64,000 nt of DNA, taken from assembly GCA_947452455.1 (NCBI GenBank), contig CANGBX010000008.1, positions 85,796 through 149,795 of the forward strand, read 5' to 3'. Made by a program: the position numbers and the translations under genes. Every line of letters begins with the position of its first letter. The stretch's first letter is position 1. The DNA comes from Beijerinckiaceae bacterium. GTDB taxonomy: Bacteria; Pseudomonadota; Alphaproteobacteria; Rhizobiales; Beijerinckiaceae. The notes under the pieces were generated by a model that was not told where the DNA came from, did no database searches, and worked only from the letters and a program-made list of their open reading frames with translations. Of the stretch, positions 41,298-56,317 are shown in pieces.

Positions 41298-42125
41298 TCA
41301 AAAAGTTCCCGGCTTGTCAGGCACGATCTTGAAGCTGCGTTTGGCACCCGGAAACCATTTGGCGAAAATCTTGTCTGCCTCGCCTGAGGCTTCCAGCTCC
41401 ATCAACGTCGCATTGACGAATTCCTTGAAACGCGGCTCGCCTTTGGGGATGCCAAAGCCCGATGTGCGCGGGCCGATGTAATCGGGCACCAGCATGAAAT
41501 CATCGGGCTTGGCATCGCGCTGCGCCATGGACAGCAGCAGCACTTCATCGGCCAGAAACGACATTGCGCGTTTGTCTTTCACAGCCTGGAAGCACAATTC
41601 GTAATTGTCGTAATTGACGAGCTGAATCGTCGGCACTGCGGCTTTCAATTCTTCATCAACGCTTGCGCCCTTGTTCAGCGCCAAAGTCTTGCCCGCCAGC
41701 TGCTGCATGGAAGTAATGCCGGAGTCTTTGCGGATGATGATCTTGTGGGGCGAATCCAGATAGGCATAAGAAAAGTCGATTGACTTGGCGCGCTCCACCG
41801 TGCGGCTCATACCCACCGCCACCAATTGCGCCTTGCCCTCTTGCAGAAAGCTGATGCGGTCCTGATTGCGCAAAGTGACCTGCTGCACTTTCACACCCAG
41901 TTTTTCAGCCACGCGGCCCGCCAGATCAACGTCATAGCCGATCGAGAGGCTTTCACCAGTTGCACGCGAGCTGAAGGGTGGTGAGGAATCTGTCACACCA
42001 ACCAGCAGAACGCCATCGGCTTTGATCTTGTCGAGCAGATCAGCATGAGCGGGCGTCAGAGCGAGACAGGCCGCAAGACCAACAAGAAACGAAAAGGTAA
42101 GCCCTTGGTGACGCACAGCCATCAT
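41298..42125 (-). CDS. Family 3 periplasmic substrate-binding protein (amino-acid ABC type)
   Basis: Signal peptide; VLLVGVTDSSPPFSSRATGESLSIGYDVDLAGRVAEKLGVKVQ. Confidence 0.9.
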   Translation of the reverse strand: MMAVRHQGLTFSFLVGLAACLALTPAHADLLDKIKADGVLLVGVTDSSPPFSSRATGESLSIGYDVDLAGRVAEKLGVKVQQVTLRNQDRISFLQEGKAQLVAVGMSRTVERAKSIDFSYAYLDSPHKIIIRKDSGITSMQQLAGKTLALNKGASVDEELKAAVPTIQLVNYDNYELCFQAVKDKRAMSFLADEVLLLSMAQRDAKPDDFMLVPDYIGPRTSGFGIPKGEPRFKEFVNATLMELEASGEADKIFAKWFPGAKRSFKIVPDKPGTF

Positions 42126-42137
42126 CCCCTCCCAAAA

Positions 42138-43166
42138 TTATTTCTTCTTCTCAGCTTCCTGCATGGTGGTGCGCACCATGTCGATCGTCTTTTCATCAAA
42201 GCGATAGGCAGCTTCAAGCGTCTTCATCAGCTCATCAGGCGCGATGAGTGAAACATTCAAACCTTGGCGACCTGCATCTTCTTGTGTGGTGGCATCAAGC
42301 AGCGTGTCACGAAAGGCTTTGCGCAGAGCCGCCAAACGATCTGCTGGCACGCCGGGTGGGGCAACAAAGGGGCGGCCCATATCCGCGCGCAGCAAGAAAA
42401 ATTCGGCCGCTTTGCGTTCAGCCGGCGACAAATCAAGATCATTCAGACCCGGCACATCCTTGATGCGCGGATCAGCTGCGAGGCGCCCCTGCACCAGCAG
42501 ACGACGCGAACCGTCTTTGAGGCCCGGCTCACGCAATGCCGTATCATAAGAGATGAATGTGCCATGTGCTTCGCCGCGCTCCACGGCCAGATTCATATCG
42601 CGCGAGCCCGGATAGCCCTGCACAATGCGCAATTTCAAATGAAAGAGATCGCGCAACATCACCGGATAGGTGAGGCTATCAGCGCCCGAACCCGTCGCTG
42701 CAACAATCAATTCCTTGCTGCGCAATTCGGCAAGTTTTTGCACAGGGCCATCGGTGCGCACAAAGGCGACAATCGTATCGCGGTCTGGTGAGCCGATGTA
42801 GTTGAACTGGCGCGGATCAAATTGCGCCGACTTATTGCCAAGCAATGGCTCGAAAGGCACACCGCGATTGATGAGCGCCATAACGGTCCCATCCTTGGGC
42901 GCCGTTTTGAAAGCCTGATTGGCGGCCACGAGTGAGCCTGCACCGGGCACATTTTGCGGCACGACAATCGGATTGCCGGGCATGAAGCGGCTCATGTGGC
43001 GGCCCAGCAAGCGGGCCCACAGATCATCCGATCCACCCGCGCCGTAACCGATCATGATCGTAATGCTTTTGCCCTTGAAAAAATCCGCGACCGCATCGGC
43101 ACGCGCCGCATTAGCAGACGCAGCAAGCGCTGCACCGAACAAAATGACTTGGGCAAGCTTGCGCAT
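42138..43166 (-). CDS. Tripartite tricarboxylate transporter (Bug) substrate-binding protein
   Basis: FFKGKSITIMIGYGAGGSDDLWARLLGRHMSRFMPGNPIVVPQNVPGAGS. Confidence 0.9.
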   Translation of the reverse strand: MRKLAQVILFGAALAASANAARADAVADFFKGKSITIMIGYGAGGSDDLWARLLGRHMSRFMPGNPIVVPQNVPGAGSLVAANQAFKTAPKDGTVMALINRGVPFEPLLGNKSAQFDPRQFNYIGSPDRDTIVAFVRTDGPVQKLAELRSKELIVAATGSGADSLTYPVMLRDLFHLKLRIVQGYPGSRDMNLAVERGEAHGTFISYDTALREPGLKDGSRRLLVQGRLAADPRIKDVPGLNDLDLSPAERKAAEFFLLRADMGRPFVAPPGVPADRLAALRKAFRDTLLDATTQEDAGRQGLNVSLIAPDELMKTLEAAYRFDEKTIDMVRTTMQEAEKKK

Positions 43167-43196
43167 ATTCCCCTCCCCAACAGCCCTTCAAGGCCT

Positions 43197-43592
43197 TTAT
43201 TTCTGGAGGCTCATGGCCTCCATGGCTTTTTCATCCGGCTTCATCTCGCTCTCGCCTGCTGCATAGCCATTGCGTTGCAGAATATAGGTGAGAATGTCGG
43301 TGTAAGTTGTGTCGTTCAAACCACCGGGATTATCCGGCGGCATGGTTGTTTTCACATAAGAGAAAAGTGAGGCAACAGAGCCCGAACCCCAATGATCGCG
43401 AAACCATGAGCCGCGCAAAGGCGCACCGCCAAAGTCGCCATCATTCAGATTTTCACCGTGGCAAATACCGCAACGCTGGATGTAAGAATCTTTGCCGCGC
43501 GCCACTTGCTCAGAAGAAAACATCGGAGCCTGCGCCGCAGCCGTAGAGACGGCGGCGCAGAAAAGCGTGAATGTCAGCGCAACAAGTTTCAT
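43197..43592 (-). CDS. Periplasmic cytochrome c, probable electron acceptor of the PQQ dehydrogenase
   Basis: Signal peptide, CGICH haem motif, TTMPPDNPGGL axial Met region; overlaps the stop of the dehydrogenase gene. Confidence 0.9.
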   Translation of the reverse strand: MKLVALTFTLFCAAVSTAAAQAPMFSSEQVARGKDSYIQRCGICHGENLNDGDFGGAPLRGSWFRDHWGSGSVASLFSYVKTTMPPDNPGGLNDTTYTDILTYILQRNGYAAGESEMKPDEKAMEAMSLQK

Positions 43593-45337
43593 TGAACAGC
43601 AAAGACCCAGAGTGTCGCGCCGCCATCCGGATTTTTAATATCCGGCGTCAACGTGTTCAGCGAACGCACTTGTGAGGAACCGTTACCAACGGCAATCGCC
43701 ACATATTGCTTGCCATTCACCGCAAAGGAGATCGGCGGGGCATTCAGCGCATTGTTCAGGCGTGTTTCCCAAAGCACTTTGCCATTGGTGTCATCATAAG
43801 CGCGGAAATAGCGATCCAGCGTGCCGGCAAAGACAACGCCGCCAGCTGTCGGCATCACGCCGCTCGACATGGCTGCGCGCTGGCGCTGCACCCAGGCTGA
43901 TTTCTGATTGGTCAGATTGACAGCCTCAAGGCGACCAAACTTGCCATCGCTATTGGGGATCGGCACACGCGCATAAACAGCACGACCACCACCCGTATAT
44001 TTCTCACCAGCCTCCAGCGGCGTCGGAGTCGTGTTCGAGCAATATTCGGTCATGGGCATGTAGAGCATTTGCGTCTTGGGGCTATAGCCCGTGGACGGCC
44101 AGCCACGTGCACCGGGATCTGCCGGGCAATTGAAGGTCGTCTTGCCGATGTGCGGCATGGCCGCTTCATTGATGGTCTTGGCGCCAGTCTTCGGGTCAAT
44201 CGACTTCACGACATTCTGGAAGACGGTTTCTTTCGCCCAAAGGAATTGCCCGTTGGTGCGATCCAACACTTCAACAATGGCCAGCTTGCCTGCAGTCACC
44301 ACCGTCTTGCGGGTTTTGCCGGCAATGGGCAGATCCACAAGAATGCGCTCATAGGCGTAATCAAGATCGAGCGTGTCATTTTCCAGATGCTGGAAATGCC
44401 ATTTCATCTTGCCGCTCTTGGGCTCGATGGCGAGCGTGGCGTCTGTGTAGAGCGCGCTATTTTCTGCGCCCTCTTTTTTCGGTGTTGTGCCGCGCATTTC
44501 GGCAATCCACGGATAGGGCTGGCCAACACCGTGATAGATCGTGTCGGTCTCGGGATCATAAGAGCCTGCAATCCAGGCCGAGCCGCCGAAACGTTCGGCC
44601 TGAGGCAGGCCATTCCATGTCTTCGCATTCGGGTCGCCATCTTGGGCCACCGTATGCACGCGCCATTTTTCAGCACCGGTCTTGGGGTCATGTCCGGTAA
44701 TGAAGCAACCACCCGGCTGCGCGGCATTGCAGCCACTCATGGACGCAACGAGCACGCCATTGGCCATGAAGGGGCCGCTTGAATAGCGATAGCCCTTCTT
44801 CCAATCGGCTGTCTCATGATCAAACACGAGCTTGCCCGTGCGCGCATCAAGCGCGACGACATGGGCATCGGATGTGGTGATGTAGAGATTGTCGCCAAAC
44901 AGCGCCATATTGCGCTTGGCGAGAGAATTACCGCCCTGCTGGATCAGCTGGGGCGCGAGATCACGGCGATATTCCCAGATGAGATCGCCGGTCGCTGCGT
45001 TGAGTGCCTGAATCTTGTCGCCCGAATTGGTGACAAAGAGAATGCCGTCATGCACCAGCGGCTCGCTCTCGGTGACACCGGAATTCAGCGACCACGTCCA
45101 AGCGACGCGCAGATTTTTGACATTGCCCTTGTTGATCTGGCCGAGCGGGCTATAGCCCCAGCTGGCATAATTGCCGCGCCACATCAGCCAATCATTGGCT
45201 GAGGGCTTGCGAAGCATGTCTTCGGTGATCGTGCTCCACTTCGGCGCGGATGATGGGGCTGGCGATTGCGCCTGCGCCTGAGCCAAAACGAATGTGCTGG
45301 CAGCTAGTCCCAGCATGAGCCGATGGAAATTGCCCAT
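43589..45337 (-). CDS. PQQ-dependent (alcohol-type) dehydrogenase, atypical
   Basis: Eight-bladed quinoprotein repeats (VVALDARTGKLVFDHE, VLDRTNGQFLWAKE, GVMPTAGGVVFAGTLDRYFRAYD); signal peptide from MGNFHRLML. Confidence 0.9.
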   Translation of the reverse strand: MGNFHRLMLGLAASTFVLAQAQAQSPAPSSAPKWSTITEDMLRKPSANDWLMWRGNYASWGYSPLGQINKGNVKNLRVAWTWSLNSGVTESEPLVHDGILFVTNSGDKIQALNAATGDLIWEYRRDLAPQLIQQGGNSLAKRNMALFGDNLYITTSDAHVVALDARTGKLVFDHETADWKKGYRYSSGPFMANGVLVASMSGCNAAQPGGCFITGHDPKTGAEKWRVHTVAQDGDPNAKTWNGLPQAERFGGSAWIAGSYDPETDTIYHGVGQPYPWIAEMRGTTPKKEGAENSALYTDATLAIEPKSGKMKWHFQHLENDTLDLDYAYERILVDLPIAGKTRKTVVTAGKLAIVEVLDRTNGQFLWAKETVFQNVVKSIDPKTGAKTINEAAMPHIGKTTFNCPADPGARGWPSTGYSPKTQMLYMPMTEYCSNTTPTPLEAGEKYTGGGRAVYARVPIPNSDGKFGRLEAVNLTNQKSAWVQRQRAAMSSGVMPTAGGVVFAGTLDRYFRAYDDTNGKVLWETRLNNALNAPPISFAVNGKQYVAIAVGNGSSQVRSLNTLTPDIKNPDGGATLWVFAVQ

Positions 45338-45457
45338 TTGATCCCCTCCCTTGATGGCTGATCTCTGACGGATCAGCTCGTGGGCTGAGATTGGCAAGAG
45401 CTGCGACAATAAGCAACCGATCTTGCGAGGCCCCTGTGGAACTGGCATCCTGCCCCC

Positions 45458-46708
45458 ATGACTGAAACCGCCCGCCGCAGCCTCGCCCGGCTCCTTTCAG
45501 AGAGCGGCGCGCAAGGGCTTGACCCGGCGGCCGTGACATTTTCGGGCGCGGATGACCTTTATTCCGGCCCCTTCCAATCAGGTCACGCCACTGGCGTGGC
45601 CTTGGCAGCAGCGATTCTGGCTGCGCGTCCCGAGCGCGCCCTCGCGCTTGATCTCGACCATGCCGCCCTGATGAGCGAGAGCTATCGCCATGTTCTCTTG
45701 GATGGACAAAGCGTGGCGGCCCCGCGCGACCCGCTGACGGGCTTTTATGAGACAGGCGATGGGCGCCAGATTTTCCTGCATGTGAATTTCCCGCACCACC
45801 GTGCGCGCGCTTTGGCTCTTTTGCGGGCTGAGCCCACTCGCGACTCTCTGCAGCAAGCCATTGGCGCATGGAAAATGCCGATGCTCGATGCCGCCTTGAT
45901 GGCCTGTGGCGCTATTTCTGCGCCCGTGCTCATGCCGCAAGAATGGCGCGATCTCGCACCCGCTTTGCCTTTGGTCAGCATTGAAAAGATCGGCGACAGC
46001 GCGCCCCAACCCTCAGACAGTTTGCGCGTGGTGGATTTCACCCGCGTGCTGGCTGGCCCGACCTGCGGTCGTTTGCTGGCAGAACTCGGCGCGGATGTGA
46101 CGCGCATCGACAATCCGCTCTATCCCGATCTTGTTTCCTATCGGCTGGATGCCAATCGCAACAAAAGCGAAGTGACGCTTGATCTGCGCCAGCCTGAGCA
46201 ACGCGCCGACCTTTTGGCGCTGGTCAACAAAGCGGATGTTTTCTTGCAAGCCTATCGTCGGGGTGTGGCGGAAGCCCTCGGGCTTTCTGCCGAAACTCTT
46301 TGCGTAAAGCGGCCCGGCCTCATTCACGCGTCTCTCTCGGCCTATGATGAAGGCACTGTCTTCGCGGGGCGGCGCGGCTTTGACAGTGCTGTGCAAGCAG
46401 CCAGCGGCATGGCGCTTGTGCATGGCGAGGGGACAGCAAAACTCCTGCCGACCTCGCCGCTGGATTATGCAGCAGGCTTTCTGCTGGCTTTTGGCGTCAA
46501 TGAAGCTTTGCATCGCCGCGCCAACGAGGGCGGCTCCTACCGTGTGCACACATCCTTGGCGCGTGTGGCGAGCTGGCTACACACTCTGCGTCATGAGCAC
46601 ACGCCACCGGAAAATGCCGAGCGCATGGCCACGATGATTGCCACCTATTCGCAAGAGAGCATCACGCCCTTAGGCGTGATCCGCCATATTGCCTCGCCAA
46701 AATTCTAA
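45458..46708 (+). CDS. CaiB/BaiF family III CoA-transferase
   Basis: LRVVDFTRVLAGPTCGRLLAELGADVTRIDNP, GFDSAVQAASGMA, PLDYAAGFLLAFG. Confidence 0.87.
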   Translation: MTETARRSLARLLSESGAQGLDPAAVTFSGADDLYSGPFQSGHATGVALAAAILAARPERALALDLDHAALMSESYRHVLLDGQSVAAPRDPLTGFYETGDGRQIFLHVNFPHHRARALALLRAEPTRDSLQQAIGAWKMPMLDAALMACGAISAPVLMPQEWRDLAPALPLVSIEKIGDSAPQPSDSLRVVDFTRVLAGPTCGRLLAELGADVTRIDNPLYPDLVSYRLDANRNKSEVTLDLRQPEQRADLLALVNKADVFLQAYRRGVAEALGLSAETLCVKRPGLIHASLSAYDEGTVFAGRRGFDSAVQAASGMALVHGEGTAKLLPTSPLDYAAGFLLAFGVNEALHRRANEGGSYRVHTSLARVASWLHTLRHEHTPPENAERMATMIATYSQESITPLGVIRHIASPKF

Positions 46709-46709
46709 A

Positions 46710-47336
46710 TCAGAGACGGCGGTCGCGTGCTTCCTGCATCCAGGGCATGGACTTGCGGATTTTATCTTCAAAAGCGACGATTTCGCTTTCGTGTTTCATC
46801 GTCAGACCGACTTCATCGAGGCCTTCAATCAGGCGGGTCTTGTCGGAAGCCGAAATCTCGAAGGAAAATGTTTCGCCATTGGGCGCGCGCACGGTTTGCG
46901 CGGGCAGATCAACTGAAAAAGACTGCGCACCGTCGATCTCTGAAACCAGAGCTTGCAGGCGATCCATGGCTGCGCCGGATAATTCAATCGGCAGCAGACC
47001 ATTGAGCAGACAATTTTCGCGGAAAATATCGGCAATCGAGCGCGCAATCACGCAGCGGATGCCCACGCCCGTCAGACACCAGACCGCACTTTCGCGCGAG
47101 GAGCCGCAGCCGAAATTTTCATTCGCCACAAGAATAGCAGGCTTTTGATATTGCGGCTTGTTGAGGACATGCTCATTGTCCGAGCCATCCGCATTCATGC
47201 GCTGGCGCTTGAACAGCAATTGTCCCCAATCAGGCGACAGACCTTTCGCTAATTGCAAAGGCGCAATCTGATCGGTGTTGATATCATCTTCGATCATCGG
47301 CATGGCCGGACCAGACAGGGTGATGAAGGGCCGCAT
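46710..47336 (-). CDS. LeuD-like hydro-lyase small subunit
   Basis: DDINTDQIAPLQ, FGCGSSRESAVW, FRENCLLNGLLPI. Confidence 0.9.
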   Translation of the reverse strand: MRPFITLSGPAMPMIEDDINTDQIAPLQLAKGLSPDWGQLLFKRQRMNADGSDNEHVLNKPQYQKPAILVANENFGCGSSRESAVWCLTGVGIRCVIARSIADIFRENCLLNGLLPIELSGAAMDRLQALVSEIDGAQSFSVDLPAQTVRAPNGETFSFEISASDKTRLIEGLDEVGLTMKHESEIVAFEDKIRKSMPWMQEARDRRL

Positions 47337-47345
47337 GATGATCCC

Positions 47346-48749
47346 TTAAAGTTTGCGCACGTCGGTGATGCGACCCGCCACAGCAGCAGCGGCTGCCAAA
47401 GCGGGACCGACAAGATGCGTGCGCACGCCCCTGCCCTGACGATTTTCGAAATTGCGATTGGTGGTCGAGAGCACGCGCTCACCAGCTTGCCCCATATCGC
47501 CATTGGTGCCTGCGCACATGGAGCAACCGCTCTCGCCCCACATGAAGCCCGCCTCTTTGAAGATGCGATCAAGGCCACGCGCTTCAGCATCGCGTTTGAC
47601 TTGGCTGGAACCAGGCACAGCCCAAGCTGTCACGCCGGGCGCCACTTTGCGACCCTTCACAATATGGGCGGCAATCTCAAGATCGGGCAGACGCGAATTG
47701 GTGCAAGAGCCGATGAACACACGACCAACAGGCAGACCTTCAATCGGCGCGCCGGGCTCAAGACCCATGTAAGAAATGGCGCGCTCAACAGGTGCGCGCT
47801 TATCCGATTCCAATGTCGCGGGATCAGGCACGCGCCCATCAATGCCGATCACTTGGCTCGGCTCCGTGCCCCAGGTGATTTGCGGCGCCAAATGGCTGCA
47901 ATCGACATCCAGCTCTTTGTCGAAGATTGCATCCGCATCTGTAAAAAGTGTGCGCCAATAGGTGAGCGCCTGATCCCATTGTGCGCCATCGGGCGCAAAG
48001 GGACGACCCTTGATCCAGTTGAAGACCGCCTCATCGGGCGCGACAAAGCCTGAGCGCGAACCCATTTCAATGGTGAGATTGCAAAGCGTGAGGCGACCTT
48101 CGACCGGCAAAGCGCGCGCAACAGGGCCTGCAAATTCGATTGCAAAACCGCGCCCACCCGCCACACCAAGTTTGGCGATGACGGCAAGTGCCACATCCTT
48201 GCCCGCCACATCCGCACCGAGTGAGCCCAGAAGATTGACGCGCAAACGTTTGGGACGAAACAGCGTCACCACTTGCGTGGCCAGAATATGCTCAAGCTCG
48301 GTCGTACCGCAGCCAAAGGCCAGAGCGCCAAGACCACCAACCGTGCAAGCATGTGAATCGGGCACCGCATGTGTCGCACCCGGCAAGACAAGACCGAGTT
48401 CGGGTGCAACCACATGGCTAATGCCTTGATCAGGATCACCTAAATCAAACACACGCACATTGTTCTTGCGCGAGCCTTCACGCATGGCGCGCACAAAGGC
48501 CGCACCTTCTGCATAAGTGTCATCCGTGCGCCCCGGCTGCACCGAGACGGAATGATCCTGCATCGAAAATGTGAGGTCAGGGCGGCGCACTTGACGACCC
48601 GCTTGCGCGAGTTTGCCAAAAGCATGCGGCGCATGCAGATCATGCAGCACATGGCGGTCAATATAGATGAGCTCACGCCCATCGGACCGTCGACCCACCA
48701 GATGCTGTTCCCAGATCTTGTCGAAAAGAGTGCGGCCCTGCTGGCTCAT
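47346..48749 (-). CDS. LeuC-like hydro-lyase large subunit (divergent paralogue)
   Basis: YIDRHVLHDLHAPHAF, PDSHACTVGGLGALAFGCGTTELEHILAT, FIGSCTNSR, GCSMCAGTNGD, NRNFENRQG. Confidence 0.9.
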   Translation of the reverse strand: MSQQGRTLFDKIWEQHLVGRRSDGRELIYIDRHVLHDLHAPHAFGKLAQAGRQVRRPDLTFSMQDHSVSVQPGRTDDTYAEGAAFVRAMREGSRKNNVRVFDLGDPDQGISHVVAPELGLVLPGATHAVPDSHACTVGGLGALAFGCGTTELEHILATQVVTLFRPKRLRVNLLGSLGADVAGKDVALAVIAKLGVAGGRGFAIEFAGPVARALPVEGRLTLCNLTIEMGSRSGFVAPDEAVFNWIKGRPFAPDGAQWDQALTYWRTLFTDADAIFDKELDVDCSHLAPQITWGTEPSQVIGIDGRVPDPATLESDKRAPVERAISYMGLEPGAPIEGLPVGRVFIGSCTNSRLPDLEIAAHIVKGRKVAPGVTAWAVPGSSQVKRDAEARGLDRIFKEAGFMWGESGCSMCAGTNGDMGQAGERVLSTTNRNFENRQGRGVRTHLVGPALAAAAAVAGRITDVRKL

Positions 48750-49828
48750 TATTTCGCGCCCATCGCTTCCATACTGTCTTTCAGCGCGGAAATGATTTCA
48801 GGCGAAGCACCAGAGAGCGCCTTGAACACTTTGGTTGCTTCCTTGTCGTCCACATATTCAAAAGGCAGACCATTGCGCTGAACGGATTCTGCGATGAATT
48901 CCTTATCATTCATCGTGTCAGCAATCGCCTTGCGCAAGATTTTCAAAGCAGGCTCCGGCGTGCCGGGAGGGGCGAGCCCCACATAGGCAAGATCACCAAA
49001 TTGCTGGACGGTCCAATTGAACGCATTCCACAATGGGCCTTCCGGCAGCTTGCCATGGATCTCCTTATAGAGATCCTGAAAGGCTGGCATGTCAGTTACA
49101 TCGGTGCGGCGCGCATAGTCCCCCTTGTCGCTTGAGGCGACGAGGTAAGAGAAGCCCATGCCCTCACCCGATTGGATGAAACCCTTCGAGCGCGTCCGGA
49201 AAGTTGCAAGGCTGGTGTTATGGAAATTCACTTCGCCACGTTGCAGCGCCAAGAACACATCAGCGCCTCCGCGATAGCCCGACACCACCTTATGCGGCAC
49301 ACCCAGTGCCTTCAGCGAGAGATGTGCGAGAATGCCCGACAGATCGGTCGTGCCATAAGCGCCAACGATAATGTTTTTTGCCTTCATAATATCAGCAGGC
49401 TTTTTCGAGCCTTCCAGCGCATCAATGCGCATATAATTCACGCGCACATCAGAAATGCCCCCCAGATAGGGAAACTGATCATAGCGCGCACGCAATCCCT
49501 GATTGCCAAGCGCCTGCGCCAGCGGATCCCACAAAGAGAAGATGATCTGCGTGCCGTCTTTCGGCGCCTTTTCGTAGATGTAATTGAAAGCGAGCACGCC
49601 ACCCGCGCCCGGCATATTCTGCACGACAATCGAGGGATCGCCCGGAATATGCTTTTTCAGATGCGGCACGAAGAGTCGCACCAAAGTGTCAGCCGAACCA
49701 CCGGCCGCCAGACCCACCATCACGGTGAGCGTTTTGCCGGCATAGACATCCTGCGCCTGCACGGGACGAGCAATAAAAGCTGAGAGTGCGGTGGCGGCCA
49801 GCGCCAGACCTTTCATCCAAGACTTCAT
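48749..49828 (-). CDS. Tripartite tricarboxylate transporter (Bug) substrate-binding protein
   Basis: YAGKTLTVMVGLAAGGSADTLVRLFVPHLKKHIPGDPSIVVQNMPGAGG. Confidence 0.9.
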   Translation of the reverse strand: MKSWMKGLALAATALSAFIARPVQAQDVYAGKTLTVMVGLAAGGSADTLVRLFVPHLKKHIPGDPSIVVQNMPGAGGVLAFNYIYEKAPKDGTQIIFSLWDPLAQALGNQGLRARYDQFPYLGGISDVRVNYMRIDALEGSKKPADIMKAKNIIVGAYGTTDLSGILAHLSLKALGVPHKVVSGYRGGADVFLALQRGEVNFHNTSLATFRTRSKGFIQSGEGMGFSYLVASSDKGDYARRTDVTDMPAFQDLYKEIHGKLPEGPLWNAFNWTVQQFGDLAYVGLAPPGTPEPALKILRKAIADTMNDKEFIAESVQRNGLPFEYVDDKEATKVFKALSGASPEIISALKDSMEAMGAK

Positions 49829-49885
49829 TTTTCCTCCTTTGGCCGCTGCATGGGGAGGGAGCGGCCTTGTTTCAACTTACGCAGA

Positions 49886-50776
49886 TCAATCTTCGCCGGA
49901 TGCGGGCGGGGTGAATTTGGCTTCCCGCGCCTGCCAATCGGCCAGACGCAGAATATCCAGATAATCACTCATGGGTGCGGCCCCGACGCTGGCCTTGGCC
50001 ACATCGCCCGTCTCTTTCAAAACCCGCAGAAAATTCTGCATCGAGGGAAGCGCTGCGAGCAGCATGCAGACCGAGCAGGACAAAAGACGAAAGCCGATGC
50101 GCTCCAATGTCTTCACATCAAGCGGCGGCACGCTGCCGGTCGGCGTCACATTATAGAGAAGCGGGATATCAATCGCGCGGGCGATCTCTTCTGCCTCTCC
50201 GATGGTTTTTGGCCCTTCGATGAAGATCACATCCGCACCCGCCTTTTGATAGGCCTGCGCACGTTTGATCGCGGAAGCCAAACCTTCCACAGCACGTGCA
50301 TCGGTCCGGGCGCAAATGACAAAGTCATCATCAAGCCGTGCATCGACAGCGGCTTTGACTTTACCTTCCATTTCTGCGGAAGAAATGACGCGCTTGCCTT
50401 CCAGCATGCCGCAGCGTTTGGGGCTCACTTGATCTTCGATCATGATGGCGGCCACACCAGCACGCTCGAATTCCATAATGGTGCGGCGCACATTGAGTGC
50501 ATTACCATAGCCGGTATCCGCATCAGCAAAAACCGGCAGACCACTGGCCTGCGCCATCGCGCCTGCATTGGCGGCATTTTCAGCCAAAGTCATAATGCCC
50601 ACATCGGGCATGCCGAGCTTCATGGCGGATGAGGCATTGCCCGAACTCATGAGCGCTTCAAATCCTTCATGCGCGATGAGCCGCGCAGAAAAGGCATCGC
50701 CCACGGAAGGGATCATGGTGATTTGCTTGCGCGCGATGAGTTCGCGAAAGCGTGTCGTCGGCCGTTTCAACGCCAT
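49886..50776 (-). CDS. Isocitrate lyase / PEP mutase superfamily lyase
   Basis: PVFADADTGYGNALNVRRTI, IEDQVSPKRCGMLEGKRVIS, ICARTDARAVEGL. Confidence 0.9.
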   Translation of the reverse strand: MALKRPTTRFRELIARKQITMIPSVGDAFSARLIAHEGFEALMSSGNASSAMKLGMPDVGIMTLAENAANAGAMAQASGLPVFADADTGYGNALNVRRTIMEFERAGVAAIMIEDQVSPKRCGMLEGKRVISSAEMEGKVKAAVDARLDDDFVICARTDARAVEGLASAIKRAQAYQKAGADVIFIEGPKTIGEAEEIARAIDIPLLYNVTPTGSVPPLDVKTLERIGFRLLSCSVCMLLAALPSMQNFLRVLKETGDVAKASVGAAPMSDYLDILRLADWQAREAKFTPPASGED

Positions 50777-50913
50777 TCTGTTTCCTCGACCCTTGAGCTC
50801 TTGAAGCGATTGGCGCCCCCGATTCCGGAGCACCTCTCCTTTTTATTGGGATGAAGGCGCCTTTGCAAAAGCCCCGCCTTGCTGGGGCTGGACCCGCCCC
50901 TTACAAACTTCCC

Positions 50914-51900
50914 ATGTTGAACCGCCTCATTCCCGATCCTTTCCTCGTCGCCCTGATTGGCGTGGTCGCCTTGGCCGCCTTTCTGCCAGCCTCCGGCAAC
51001 GCCGCCGTGGCGGTGGACATCATCGCCAATATTGCCATTGGCCTGCTGTTCTTTTTGCAGGGCGCGCGGCTGGCGCGCGAGACCGTGATCGGCGGCATCA
51101 CCCATTGGCGCCTGCATGTGCTGGTGCTTGGCTGCACCTTTGTGCTCTTCCCGTTGCTTGGCATTGCACTGCACGCGCTGGCACCCAATCTCCTGTCGGA
51201 GACTTTGTGGGTCGGCATGCTGTTTCTCTGCGCCCTGCCCTCGACGGTGCAATCATCCATTGCTTTTACGTCCATCGGCAAAGGCAATGTGCCTGCCGCC
51301 ATTTGTGCTGCGACCGCCTCCAATCTGCTCGGCATTTTCATCACGCCGCTGCTGGTAGGGCTCTTGCTCTCAGCCAAAGGCGAGATGGGTTTTGATCTCA
51401 CAGCTATTGGCAAAATCGTGCTGCAATTGCTGGTGCCTTTCATCGCCGGTCAAATCTTGCGTCCCAAAATTGGCGGCTTCGTGCTGAAGCACAAGAAAAT
51501 CCTGTCGATGACAGATCGCAGCTCCATTCTGCTGGTCGTCTATTCGGCCTTCAGCGCCGCTGTGGTGAACGGCATTTGGCAGCGGCTGGCTGTGAATGAT
51601 CTGGTCACATTGCTGCTGCTTGATAGTTTGCTGCTCGGCGTGGTGCTGCTGATCACCACGATGGCTGCGCGCGCCTTCGGCTTCGACAAGCCCGATGAAG
51701 TCACCATCGTCTTTTGCGGTTCGAAAAAGACGCTGGCCAGCGGCGTGCCTATGGCCAATGTGCTGTTTCCAGGCGCCGCAGCAGGCATCGTCATTCTCCC
51801 CTTGATGATCTTCCACCAAATCCAGCTCATGGTCTGCGCCTGGATGGCGCAACGCTATGGCCGCTTGATTGAGGAAAAAGAACCGATCACGGGGCCGTGA
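50914..51900 (+). CDS. Bile acid:sodium symporter family protein (YfeH-type)
   Basis: Ten hydrophobic segments; FLQGARLARETVIGGITHWRLH, LPSTVQSSIAFTSIGKGNVPAAICAATASNLLGIFITPLL. Confidence 0.92.
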   Translation: MLNRLIPDPFLVALIGVVALAAFLPASGNAAVAVDIIANIAIGLLFFLQGARLARETVIGGITHWRLHVLVLGCTFVLFPLLGIALHALAPNLLSETLWVGMLFLCALPSTVQSSIAFTSIGKGNVPAAICAATASNLLGIFITPLLVGLLLSAKGEMGFDLTAIGKIVLQLLVPFIAGQILRPKIGGFVLKHKKILSMTDRSSILLVVYSAFSAAVVNGIWQRLAVNDLVTLLLLDSLLLGVVLLITTMAARAFGFDKPDEVTIVFCGSKKTLASGVPMANVLFPGAAAGIVILPLMIFHQIQLMVCAWMAQRYGRLIEEKEPITGP

Positions 51901-52881: not shown

Positions 52882-53685
52882 ATGCAGTTTTCGAAGAAAC
52901 AGGCACTTGCGGCTGTTTTGACGGGCCTGCTGGCGATCCATGCCCTTCCCGCCGCCGCCCATTTTCAGGAAATCCTGCCCTCCGATGATGTGCTGCCTGA
53001 TGGCGGCAAGGTGAGCCTTGATCTCGTCTTCACCCATCCGATGGAGGGTGGGCCGGTGATGGAGATGAAAAAACCTAAGCGCGTGGGCGCGCTGATCGGC
53101 GGCAAGACGATTGATCTCTCGGCTTCTCTGAAGGCAGTGAAGAAGCAAGGTGCGGGTGCATGGTCTCTCACGCATGAGCTGAAAGAACCCGGCACGGCGA
53201 TTTTCTTTGTCGAGCCACAGCCCTACTGGGAGCCAGCGGAAAACAAATACATCGTCCATTACGCCAAGGTCGTGGTGGATGGCTTTGCGTCAGGCAAAGG
53301 CTGGGATGAAAAGATCGGCCTGCCTGTCGAGATTGAACCGCTCACGCGCCCAACAGGATTGTGGACCGGCAATCTCTTCCGCGGTGTCGTGCTGAAAGAC
53401 GGCAAGCCCGTGCCCTTCGCAGAAGTCGAAGTGGAATATGTGAATGATGGTGCAGTGAAAGCCCCAAATGATGCTTTCATCACGCAAGTCATCAAAGCCG
53501 ATGCCAATGGCACTTTTGCTTACGCCATGCCGCGCGCCGGATGGTGGGGCTTTGCTGCGCTGATCGAAGATGACAAGCCCGCCAAATCACCTGACGGAAA
53601 AGACGCCAAGACAGAACTCGGCGGTCTCATCTGGGTGAAAGCGACCGACATGACGGGCGCACGCCCCGCGGCGCGAGGCAAATAA
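52882..53685 (+). CDS. DUF4198 / NikK-CbiK-type periplasmic nickel/cobalt-associated protein
   Basis: Signal peptide then HFQEILPSDDVLPDGGKVSLDLVFTHPMEGG…; heads a CbiMLQO-type operon. Confidence 0.87.
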   Translation: MQFSKKQALAAVLTGLLAIHALPAAAHFQEILPSDDVLPDGGKVSLDLVFTHPMEGGPVMEMKKPKRVGALIGGKTIDLSASLKAVKKQGAGAWSLTHELKEPGTAIFFVEPQPYWEPAENKYIVHYAKVVVDGFASGKGWDEKIGLPVEIEPLTRPTGLWTGNLFRGVVLKDGKPVPFAEVEVEYVNDGAVKAPNDAFITQVIKADANGTFAYAMPRAGWWGFAALIEDDKPAKSPDGKDAKTELGGLIWVKATDMTGARPAARGK

Positions 53686-53686
53686 A

Positions 53687-54295
53687 TTGGCGCATATTCC
53701 TGACGGCGTTTTGTCTCTTCCTGTGCTGGTCGGCGGCGGCGTGATTGCTGTTGGCGCTGTCGCACTGGGTTTGAAGAAAATCGGCGACGAGGATATTCCG
53801 CGCACCGCCATTCTTGCCTCGGGATTTTTTGCGCTTTCGCTTTTCGCTCTGCCCGTTGGCCCATCAAGTATTCATCTGCTGCTTGGCGGATTGATGGGCA
53901 TTGTCTTGGGCACAGCGATTTTTCCGGCCGTCTGCGTAGCGCTGCTTTTGCAAGCGGTCATGTTCGGCTTTGGTGGCCTGACGACGTTGGGCGTGAACAT
54001 TGTCAACATTGCTTTGCCGGGGGCTGTGATTGGCGCCCTTGTTGCGCCCATGGTTCAGCGCGCGACACCGGCACGCGCAGCCTTGATCGCAGGAATTGCC
54101 AGCGCGCTGTGTGTGGGCCTAACAGGCCTGATGGTGGCGGCCTCTCTCGCACTCTCCTCTGCCGATTACATGCTGTCGGCACGCGTGATGATCGCCACTT
54201 ATCTGCCGCTCATGCTGGTTGAAGGTTTCGTCGGCGGTTTCTGCATTTCGTTCGTGAAACGCGTGAAGCCCGAATTGCTGGCGGGTGCTGCATGA
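53687..54295 (+). CDS. ECF-type Ni/Co transporter substrate-specific component NikM/CbiM
   Basis: MAHIPDGVLSLPVL, LPVGPSSIHLLLGGLMGIVLG; TTG start. Confidence 0.92.
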   Translation: MAHIPDGVLSLPVLVGGGVIAVGAVALGLKKIGDEDIPRTAILASGFFALSLFALPVGPSSIHLLLGGLMGIVLGTAIFPAVCVALLLQAVMFGFGGLTTLGVNIVNIALPGAVIGALVAPMVQRATPARAALIAGIASALCVGLTGLMVAASLALSSADYMLSARVMIATYLPLMLVEGFVGGFCISFVKRVKPELLAGAA

Positions 54296-54861
54296 AGGTC
54301 TGGCGCGCGCTTCTACCACTCTTGGCACTGTCGCTCATGATGAGCGGGGCTGAAGCGCATCGCCTGAAGCTTTTTGCCACGCTCGAAGACGGCACGATCT
54401 CCGGCTATGCGTTCTTTGTGGGCAGCAGCCGCGCGCAAGATGCGGATCTGCGCATCACGGATGCCAACGGCAAAGAAGTGGCTGCGCTGCGCACGGATGC
54501 AAAGGGCGCGTATAGCTGGAAAACCCCCAGCGTGCAGACCTATCGCCTTGTCGCCAATACGGGTGATGGCCACGTGGCGGATACGACCATTGATGCCAAA
54601 CGTTTCGCTGGGCTCTCTGCTGATGCAACGGATGCGGCCGACGATGATGAAAGTGCGCCTGCTGGCAGCATCAGCGCCGCACAAATCGAGCGCATTGTTG
54701 ATGCGGCTGTCGCGCGCCAGATGCGCCCGCTGATCGAAGCCTATGAGGCAGCTGAAGGACGCACGCGTTTCAATGATATTATGGGCGGCATCGGCATGAT
54801 CATCGGCCTCGCAGGCCTCTCGCTCTGGGCGCAAGCGCGCCGTCGGGAGAAAAAGCCGTGA
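54292..54861 (+). CDS. NikL/CbiL-type auxiliary component
   Basis: Signal peptide; AHRLKLFATLEDGTISGYAFFVG…; C-terminal TM; overlapping start/stop with neighbours. Confidence 0.85.
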   Translation: MKVWRALLPLLALSLMMSGAEAHRLKLFATLEDGTISGYAFFVGSSRAQDADLRITDANGKEVAALRTDAKGAYSWKTPSVQTYRLVANTGDGHVADTTIDAKRFAGLSADATDAADDDESAPAGSISAAQIERIVDAAVARQMRPLIEAYEAAEGRTRFNDIMGGIGMIIGLAGLSLWAQARRREKKP

Positions 54862-55613
54862 GCCTCGCACGCCTCACCGAAGCCCCGTCCCTCGTCATCA
54901 CGCGGCTTGATCCCCGCTCGCGCATCATCAGCGCTCTTGTCTGCGTGCTCACCGCTGTGTCGATGACGCGCACAACAGGCCAGATCGGCATGGTGCTGGC
55001 AGCCATTGCGCTCGCCATTCTGGCGGAGGTGAATTGGCGCGACATGCTGCATCGCTTGGCGCATGTCGAAGGCTTTATGGTCGTGCTTTTGATCCTGTTG
55101 CCATTGACGATGGAGGGCCGCACTCTCATCGCAATCGGCCCACTCGCGCTTTCAGAGACAGGCTTGATGCGCGCTCTTGCCATTGTGCTCAAGGTCAATG
55201 CGGCGGTCATTGCGACAATGGCTTTGCTTGCCACATTAGAGCCTGTGCGGTTGGGCCGTGGTTTGGCCTCGCTTGGTGTGCCTGCGCGCCTTGTCCATAT
55301 TCTGCTGTTTCTGGTGCGCTACCAAAGCCTGTTTCGGGAAGAAGGCGCGCGCCTCATGGAAGCCATGCGTGCGCGCGGCTTTGCGCCCCGTCTTGATCTG
55401 CGCACATGGCGTGCTTACGGCAATTTCACCGGCATGTTGCTGGTGCGCTCGATGGAGCGCGCCGAACGCGTGGAAGAAAGCATGCGCTGCCGAGGCTTTT
55501 CGGGCAAATTCCCGCTGCGCAGCACACGCGCGCTCGGCTTCGTTGATTTTGCTTTTCTCTTTGCGCTCGGCTGCGCCCTTGCAGCGCTTATCATTCTGGA
55601 TCGCTTTGCATGA
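54858..55613 (+). CDS. ECF transporter T component (CbiQ/NikQ)
   Basis: LDPRSRIISALV…; conserved MEAMRARGF and EESMRCRGFSG coupling motifs. Confidence 0.92.
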   Translation: MSLARLTEAPSLVITRLDPRSRIISALVCVLTAVSMTRTTGQIGMVLAAIALAILAEVNWRDMLHRLAHVEGFMVVLLILLPLTMEGRTLIAIGPLALSETGLMRALAIVLKVNAAVIATMALLATLEPVRLGRGLASLGVPARLVHILLFLVRYQSLFREEGARLMEAMRARGFAPRLDLRTWRAYGNFTGMLLVRSMERAERVEESMRCRGFSGKFPLRSTRALGFVDFAFLFALGCALAALIILDRFA

Positions 55614-56317
55614 CACATCTGATCGAAATGAAAAATGTCATTGTCGAGCGTGAAGGTGCGCGCGTGCTGGATGGCGTGTCCATGTATCTGGAACGCGGCG
55701 AGCGATTGGCCGTCATCGGCTCGAATGGGGCAGGCAAAACAACTTTTTTGCGCGCTCTGATCGGCCTGCAAAAACTCTCCGGCGGCAGCATTGAAGCATT
55801 TGGTCGCGCGCGCCAATCAGAAGATGATTTCCGCGAAGTGCGCCTGCGTGCTGCCTATCTCTTTCAGGATGCGGATGATCAGCTGTTCTGTCCAAGCGTG
55901 GTCGAAGATGTCGCCTTCGGTCCGCTCAACCAAGGTTTTTCAGAAGACGAAGCCATGGACAAGGCGCGCGCCACTTTGGCACGGCTTGGCCTCTCGGCTC
56001 TTGGGCCCCGCGTGACGCGCAAATTATCGGGCGGCGAAAAGCGCCTCGTCTGTCTAGCCGCGATTCTGGCGATGGACCCGGACGTTCTGCTGCTGGACGA
56101 GCCAACCAACTCGCTCGATGCGCATCATGTCGAGAAGCTCGTTGAAATTCTGAACTCTCTTGATGTGGGCATGATCATCGTTTCGCATGACCGCCCCGTG
56201 CTCGACCGTTTGGCGAGCCGCGCTTTGCTCATGAAAAACGGGCAACTCGAACCGGCTGTCTTGCATCGCCATCCGCATATGCACGAACATGTGCATATTC
56301 ATACAGACCATGCGTGA
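55610..56317 (+). CDS. ECF transporter ATPase (CbiO/NikO) with His-rich C-terminus
   Basis: GSNGAGKTTFLRALIG, LSGGEKRLVCLAAILAMDPDVLLLDEPTN; tail HRHPHMHEHVHIHTDHA. Confidence 0.93.
   Translation: MTHLIEMKNVIVEREGARVLDGVSMYLERGERLAVIGSNGAGKTTFLRALIGLQKLSGGSIEAFGRARQSEDDFREVRLRAAYLFQDADDQLFCPSVVEDVAFGPLNQGFSEDEAMDKARATLARLGLSALGPRVTRKLSGGEKRLVCLAAILAMDPDVLLLDEPTNSLDAHHVEKLVEILNSLDVGMIIVSHDRPVLDRLASRALLMKNGQLEPAVLHRHPHMHEHVHIHTDHA

Follow-up and report, generated by a model that had tools for sequence, protein, structure and literature searches.

Within a 64,000-nucleotide stretch of contig 8 of a Beijerinckiaceae genome (assembly GCA_947452455.1, contig CANGBX010000008.1, positions 85,796 to 149,795; hereafter the window), a minus-strand run of four genes was identified which encodes a lyase of the isocitrate lyase (ICL)/phosphoenolpyruvate (PEP)-mutase superfamily, a periplasmic binding protein of the Bug/TctC type and the large (LeuC) and small (LeuD) subunits of a hydratase. 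This core is proposed, with a probability of roughly 0.7, to be a catabolic operon for a branched or unsaturated dicarboxylic acid, whereby gene content and order, the conservation of hydratase with lyase, the separation from leucine synthesis, the lyase fold and the conserved motifs are the observations from which the reactions and the substrate class were deduced. The first gene of the core encodes the lyase ('lyase A', 49886-50776; PF13714, 165 bits) and starts with the ATG at 50776, a GTG at 50833 being a possible alternative. It is followed by the gene of the Bug protein (48749-49828; PF03401, 26.7 bits, slightly below the cut-off), by leuC (47346-48749, 467 amino acids; NF009116, 652 bits) and by leuD (46710-47336, 208 amino acids; NF002458, 208 bits). 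The spacing is operon-like, with 57 bases between bug and lyase, an overlap of 1 base between leuC and bug and 9 bases between leuD and leuC. The host genome comprises 3.05 Mb and is 95.6% complete; its nearest named relatives are metagenome-assembled genomes of the Beijerinckiaceae.

The proposal is carried above all by the linkage of hydratase and lyase across relatives. In a LeuC tree of 114 rows, built with a quick method and with L034 (96% identical) standing in for the window row, which had been dropped as a duplicate, the window type falls into a clade of 42 rows with a support of 99, well apart from the leucine LeuC of the same genome (L115, contig 3). Loci were gathered by LeuC similarity, whereby lyase linkage played no part in selection, and linkage was counted for loci flanked on either side by about 2.7 kb or more, a lyase being scored if it lay on the strand of leuC and no further than 4 kb away. 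An ICL/PEP-mutase-family lyase was found beside LeuC in 22 of the 26 clade loci as compared to 4 of the 39 loci outside the clade, hence suggesting that hydratase and lyase form a conserved unit with a probably catabolic role. The lyase lies upstream of leuCD in the window type and in L039-L042, directly so in L070 and L071, and downstream of it in L045, L057, L114 and others, the lyases of these other groups being 34-47% identical to the window lyase. L057 stems from Microvirga antarctica, a cultivated relative. As the lyase may thus precede or follow leuCD and derives from different subfamilies, the pairing is independent of one inherited gene order. The position of the Bug gene in the core order is kept in L034-L042, and the core is present in L039, L040 and L041, whose LeuC is 78-85% identical to that of the window. 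Four loci (L051, L055, L056, L058) possess two different ICL-superfamily lyases flanking one LeuCD, and their lyase and Bug protein share 86-87% and about 80-81% identity with the window counterparts, which documents that the same lyase-Bug pair became joined to two LeuCD types. The operon of these loci also holds a thioesterase, a second Bug protein and, in 4 of 4 cases, IorAB-like 2-oxo-acid oxidoreductase subunits. More generally, sister operons add genes for IorAB (indolepyruvate-oxidoreductase-like), thioesterase, alpha/beta hydrolase, enoyl-CoA hydratase or cupin proteins, and these additions are catabolic in character. The lyase-Bug-LeuC-LeuD core is conserved beyond chance, and the clade spans Hyphomicrobiales and some Burkholderiales. 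A different company of genes was observed in L119, L120 and L121, where the clade LeuCD stands with a crotonase, an alpha/beta hydrolase, a metallo-beta-lactamase-fold protein, an AbrB-family membrane protein and TctA.

Curated models label LeuC and LeuD of the clade as leucine biosynthesis proteins, although the clade is apparently catabolic; the window proteins pass the cut-offs of TIGR00170 (LeuC, 564.5 bits, cut-off 560) and TIGR00171 (LeuD, 157.6 bits, cut-off 116). Alignment revealed that the [4Fe-4S] cysteines of LeuC are kept (GSCTN at 347, SGCSMC at 407) and that the LeuD specificity loop, which in this family contributes to substrate choice, is altered to LAKGLSPDWG. The loop of leucine-type LeuD reads K-Q-Y/F-L-K and R-T/S-G-L/F-G, and clade LeuD differs there. 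Likewise the LeuD motif SSREHA is changed to SSRESA with loss of the histidine, and in the aligned clade members it reads SSRE-S/A/G-A, except for L070 and L071, which retain the histidine. The genome encodes three LeuC proteins next to one aconitase-like match. That on contig 3 is accompanied by leuD and a LeuB-like gene (called from the opening motif GDGIGPEV of its product, not by a model) amid ribosomal-protein and tRNA-modification genes, while that on contig 4 (L114, 34000-53000), which shares 67% identity with window LeuC, is likewise linked to a lyase. The neighbours of the L114 unit are two unclassified cupins, an alpha/beta hydrolase, a crotonase and a glutathione S-transferase (GST), further an arylmalonate-decarboxylase-like protein and several Bug proteins. 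Based on the separate leuC...leuD...leuB region, the separate tree clade and the changed LeuD loop with its lost SSREHA histidine, a leucine-synthesis role was rejected, and from these sequence features it is concluded that the window LeuCD does not serve leucine synthesis. The earlier note on this DNA had named, as refuting its proposal, a pair that complements a leuCD mutant and is the only copy of the genome; the contig 3 region shows that it is not the only copy, and together with the conserved pairing in the clade it bears out the hydratase-lyase pair as distinct from leucine synthesis.

For the lyase, PrpB was identified as the nearest NCBIfam model, yet the score of 252 bits is below the cut-off of 354. 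The AlphaFold2 model of the protein (predicted local distance difference test, pLDDT, 91.6) adopts the ICL/PEP-mutase barrel and superposes with a template modelling (TM) score of about 0.9 on methylisocitrate lyase, 4iqd, petal death protein, oxaloacetate acetylhydrolase and dimethylmalate lyase; the fold thus does not discriminate among substrates. The KRCG loop with the catalytic cysteine and the metal-site residues D58, D85 and D87 are retained. With this modelled fold, cysteine and aspartates, the protein conforms to what is expected of a C-C lyase of the ICL/PEP-mutase superfamily. Two motifs are replaced: KRCGM stands in place of the KRCGH of the compared methylisocitrate lyases, and YNVTPTGSVP in place of N-x-T-E-F-G, whereby N-V/I-T-P-T-G is common to the window lyase and its orthologues. 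These replacements indicate that the window lyase and its orthologues constitute a distinct specificity group. Another lyase of the PEP-mutase family was seen in an organic-acid island (L183, contig 2, 121000-140000), together with HbpS-like, PrpF isomerase, TctC, TctA-like and PrpD-like genes.

The suggested pathway assumes that the Bug protein captures the carboxylate in the periplasm. Once inside the cell, a dicarboxylate of the alkyl-maleate/alkyl-malate type, either cis-unsaturated or carrying a 2-hydroxy group, would be hydrated by the LeuCD-type [4Fe-4S] enzyme or have its hydroxyl group moved by it. Cleavage between C2 and C3 of the malate derivative so formed would then fall to the ICL-superfamily lyase, yielding a 2-oxo acid (pyruvate, glyoxylate or larger) and a short carboxylate. 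Candidate substrates compatible with this scheme are citraconate, dimethylmaleate, maleate and 2-alkylmalates. Several observations weigh against this proposal: 4 of the 26 clade loci (L052, L119, L120, L121) are without a lyase near LeuCD, the cluster holds no regulator gene and no TctAB partners for its Bug proteins, and in the databases and papers searched no clade enzyme with a measured activity was found, the catabolic direction and the substrate thus being deduced.

Among other functions of the core, an unlikely one is that of a maleate or citraconate hydratase in gentisate-type ring cleavage (D-malate or citramalate branch), where the lyase would split what the hydratase forms. A gentisate pathway is known that employs LeuCD-like maleate hydratases, the LeuCD-lyase paralogue on contig 4 adjoins two cupins, an alpha/beta hydrolase and a GST, and L070 holds a cupin and a Rieske dioxygenase; however, the window is devoid of any ring-cleavage gene, at 1e-20 none of the NCBIfam models of gentisate dioxygenase was matched by the contig 4 cupins, and the one of them searched against solved structures gave no match, wherefore their identity as gentisate dioxygenases was rejected. 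It is improbable that the pair cleaves 2-alkylmalates to a larger 2-oxo acid and acetate (e.g., 2-isopropylmalate, obtained from the 3-isomer via LeuCD), an idea suggested by the sister operons in which the same lyase A and Bug protein are accompanied by an IorAB-like 2-oxo-acid oxidoreductase, because the window unit is without IorAB and the isopropyl-type LeuD loop is lost. Very improbable as well is a variant of the methylcitrate cycle, in which the lyase would serve as methylisocitrate lyase and LeuCD would take the place of methylaconitate hydratase. Methylisocitrate lyases are the closest solved relatives of the lyase, and genes of the PrpF and PrpD families are present elsewhere in the genome, but the prpB model score and the replacement of residues common to the compared methylisocitrate lyases disfavour such a role, and the unit contains neither a citrate-synthase-like nor a PrpD gene. 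Next to no credence is given to a second leucine-pathway isomerase that by chance came to lie near unrelated genes: it would account for the two leucine model cut-offs being passed, but not for the separate leuC...leuD...leuB, the separate clade, the changed LeuD loop and the conserved lyase pairing. The catabolic operon for a branched or unsaturated dicarboxylic acid is the preferred reading.

How far this operon extends functionally was assessed on the genes downstream of it. The core (50776-46710) is one of two operon-like minus-strand runs, the other (45448-41298) comprising a quinoprotein dehydrogenase of the pyrroloquinoline quinone (PQQ) type (43589-45448, alternative start 45340 possible; PF01011, 216 bits), a small c-type cytochrome (43197-43592; PF13442, 31 bits), a second TctC/Bug-type binding protein (42138-43166; PF03401, 26.7 bits, slightly below the cut-off of 27) and a family 3 solute-binding protein (SBP3, SBP_bac_3; 41298-42125; PF00497, 108 bits), with a 4-base overlap between cytochrome and dehydrogenase, 30 bases between bug and cytochrome and 12 between SBP3 and bug. 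Between both runs, a type III (CaiB/BaiF) CoA-transferase (CoA_transf_3) is encoded on the plus strand (45458-46708; PF02515, 157 bits over residues 189-377); as this gene is convergent with leuD, at a distance of 1 base, and divergent from the dehydrogenase gene, the span comprises at least three transcription units. The dehydrogenase shows full-length matches in the PDB to the alcohol dehydrogenases 9m2c and 4cvb (E about 1e-96) and reaches 400 bits with TIGR03075 (methanol/ethanol family), below the cut-off of 480; the small cytochrome c is its probable electron acceptor, judging from the gene arrangement. All listed genes are present, and an open reading frame check together with profile searches confirmed the strands, coordinates and families given for them in the earlier note, which had, furthermore, joined the whole span into a single cluster and one pathway of periplasmic alcohol oxidation, hydration and cleavage. 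Spelled out, the quinoprotein would oxidize an alcohol in the periplasm, Bug proteins would take up the acid, the CoA-transferase would activate or shuttle it, and hydration and cleavage would follow. This one pathway is regarded as possible, with less than even confidence. The gene order of the window (dehydrogenase-cytochrome-Bug, CoA-transferase, LeuDC-Bug-lyase) recurs in L034, L035, L036 and L038, all of which are near relatives that share general synteny anyway. In L060 and L070, too, clade LeuCD and lyase are accompanied by a quinoprotein and a small c-type cytochrome, whereby the three dehydrogenases (window type, L060, L070) belong to different subfamilies and are 28-34% identical to one another. 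Over the 603 kb covered by clade LeuC loci, 3 such lineages were thus counted, while the 893 kb around the other LeuC genes yielded none. The count expected in 603 kb is about 0.4 from the density in this genome (2 per 3.05 Mb) and about 1.0 from that in a relative rich in such genes (7 per 4.1 Mb); this estimate is crude, taking account neither of relatedness nor of how the flanks were chosen, and the excess over it is small. The recurrence in two other lineages weakly supports a link to the core. On the other side, the core of L039-L041 is without neighbouring genes for dehydrogenase, cytochrome, second Bug protein and CoA-transferase, and L165, L166 and L170 have the dehydrogenase-cytochrome pair with no core beside it. 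In L164, CoA-transferase and dehydrogenase genes adjoin a PrpF-family isomerase at the position expected for leuD, and contig 7 of the genome under study carries a 70% identical PrpF. The SBP3 gene is absent at this place from L034-L038 and was not found there in any relative checked; it is without ABC permease neighbours and probably stands outside the conserved unit, as far as its distribution tells. Of the cluster formerly drawn, the lyase-Bug-LeuC-LeuD core is thus conserved, while conservation of dehydrogenase, cytochrome and CoA-transferase ends with the near relatives and that of SBP3 was not found.

The supply of PQQ also speaks against the single pathway. With PqqE as the sole PQQ-synthesis protein searched, none was detected in the genome under study, whose best score was 39.7 bits against a cut-off of 381, or among 31 genomes of the genus (17 of high quality), and a family-wide search serving as positive control identified PqqE in 17 of 40 genomes. 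Quinoprotein dehydrogenases are common in the genus nevertheless. Either the cofactor is imported, or a different route of synthesis is used, or the dehydrogenase functions without it. A doubtful, more far-reaching idea is an undescribed aerobic route in which quinoprotein and cytochrome would oxidize an alcohol to the branched dicarboxylate, which would pass via Bug protein and LeuCD to the new lyase, in a genus seemingly without PQQ synthesis that would obtain PQQ from its neighbours or keep an empty quinoprotein. A more modest reading, itself weakly supported, is that the core pathway may be fed or drained by the quinoprotein-cytochrome-Bug unit and by the CoA-transferase.

The CoA-transferase is unusual in that its catalytic half is recognizable at the C-terminus only (residues about 184-377; nearest PDB entry Rv3272), all equivalog models scoring well below their cut-offs. 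A search with the N-terminal 182 residues alone gave no sequence match, and the AlphaFold model is poor (pLDDT 64.7). Four aligned relatives have the same architecture and keep the motif SPLDYAAG as SPLDY-C/A-AG, and similarly built proteins have probably been annotated before. A possible circular permutation was probed by shifting the N-terminal 183 residues behind the C-terminal part, which left the Pfam score at 157.4 both ways. Upstream of the core, an SBF-like (DUF4137) transporter is encoded on the plus strand (50851-51900; PF13593, 338 bits), divergent from the lyase gene; it adjoins the lyase in L034-L038 and is kept as a neighbour in near relatives only. Scans for promoters and terminators gave no usable signal. 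Adjoining the cluster, at 52882-56317 of the window, genes for DUF4198, CbiM, CbiQ and an ABC ATPase form an uptake operon of the cobalt/nickel type.

Assignment of one substrate would correct the annotation of the whole operon group and would also explain the varied lyases, oxidoreductases and binding proteins found in its neighbourhood. A literature search, with most subscription journals outside its reach, found no paper on this gene combination and none on dimethylmaleate hydratase with dimethylmalate lyase. Compared with known systems, the window LeuCD resembles isopropylmalate isomerase in overall family and iron-sulphur cysteines, but belongs to another clade, is changed in the LeuD loop and SSREHA motif and has no leuB nearby. 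The lyase shares with PrpB the fold, the KRCG catalytic loop and the metal-site aspartates, but stays under the equivalog cut-off with two motifs replaced. The dehydrogenase matches the quinoprotein alcohol dehydrogenases 4cvb and 9m2c over its full length, but stays below the TIGR03075 cut-off and belongs to a genus without detectable PqqE. In nicotinate fermentation, dimethylmaleate hydratase (DmdAB) is followed by 2,3-dimethylmalate lyase, a system which the earlier note had taken as its example. Membership of the dimethylmaleate hydratase family was not borne out, as LeuD reaches 66 bits with the LeuD/DmdB model TIGR02087 (cut-off 109); the window LeuCD is of the long bacterial isopropylmalate isomerase type (467 and 208 amino acids), not of the LeuD/DmdB type, and the dimethylmalate lyase 3fa3 is not the closest solved structure of the window lyase. 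The setting differs as well by its Bug proteins, quinoprotein and cytochrome. What both systems share is a two-subunit hydratase of the aconitase superfamily followed by an ICL/PEP-mutase lyase and, in one relative (L164), a PrpF-family isomerase adjoining the CoA-transferase-dehydrogenase unit.

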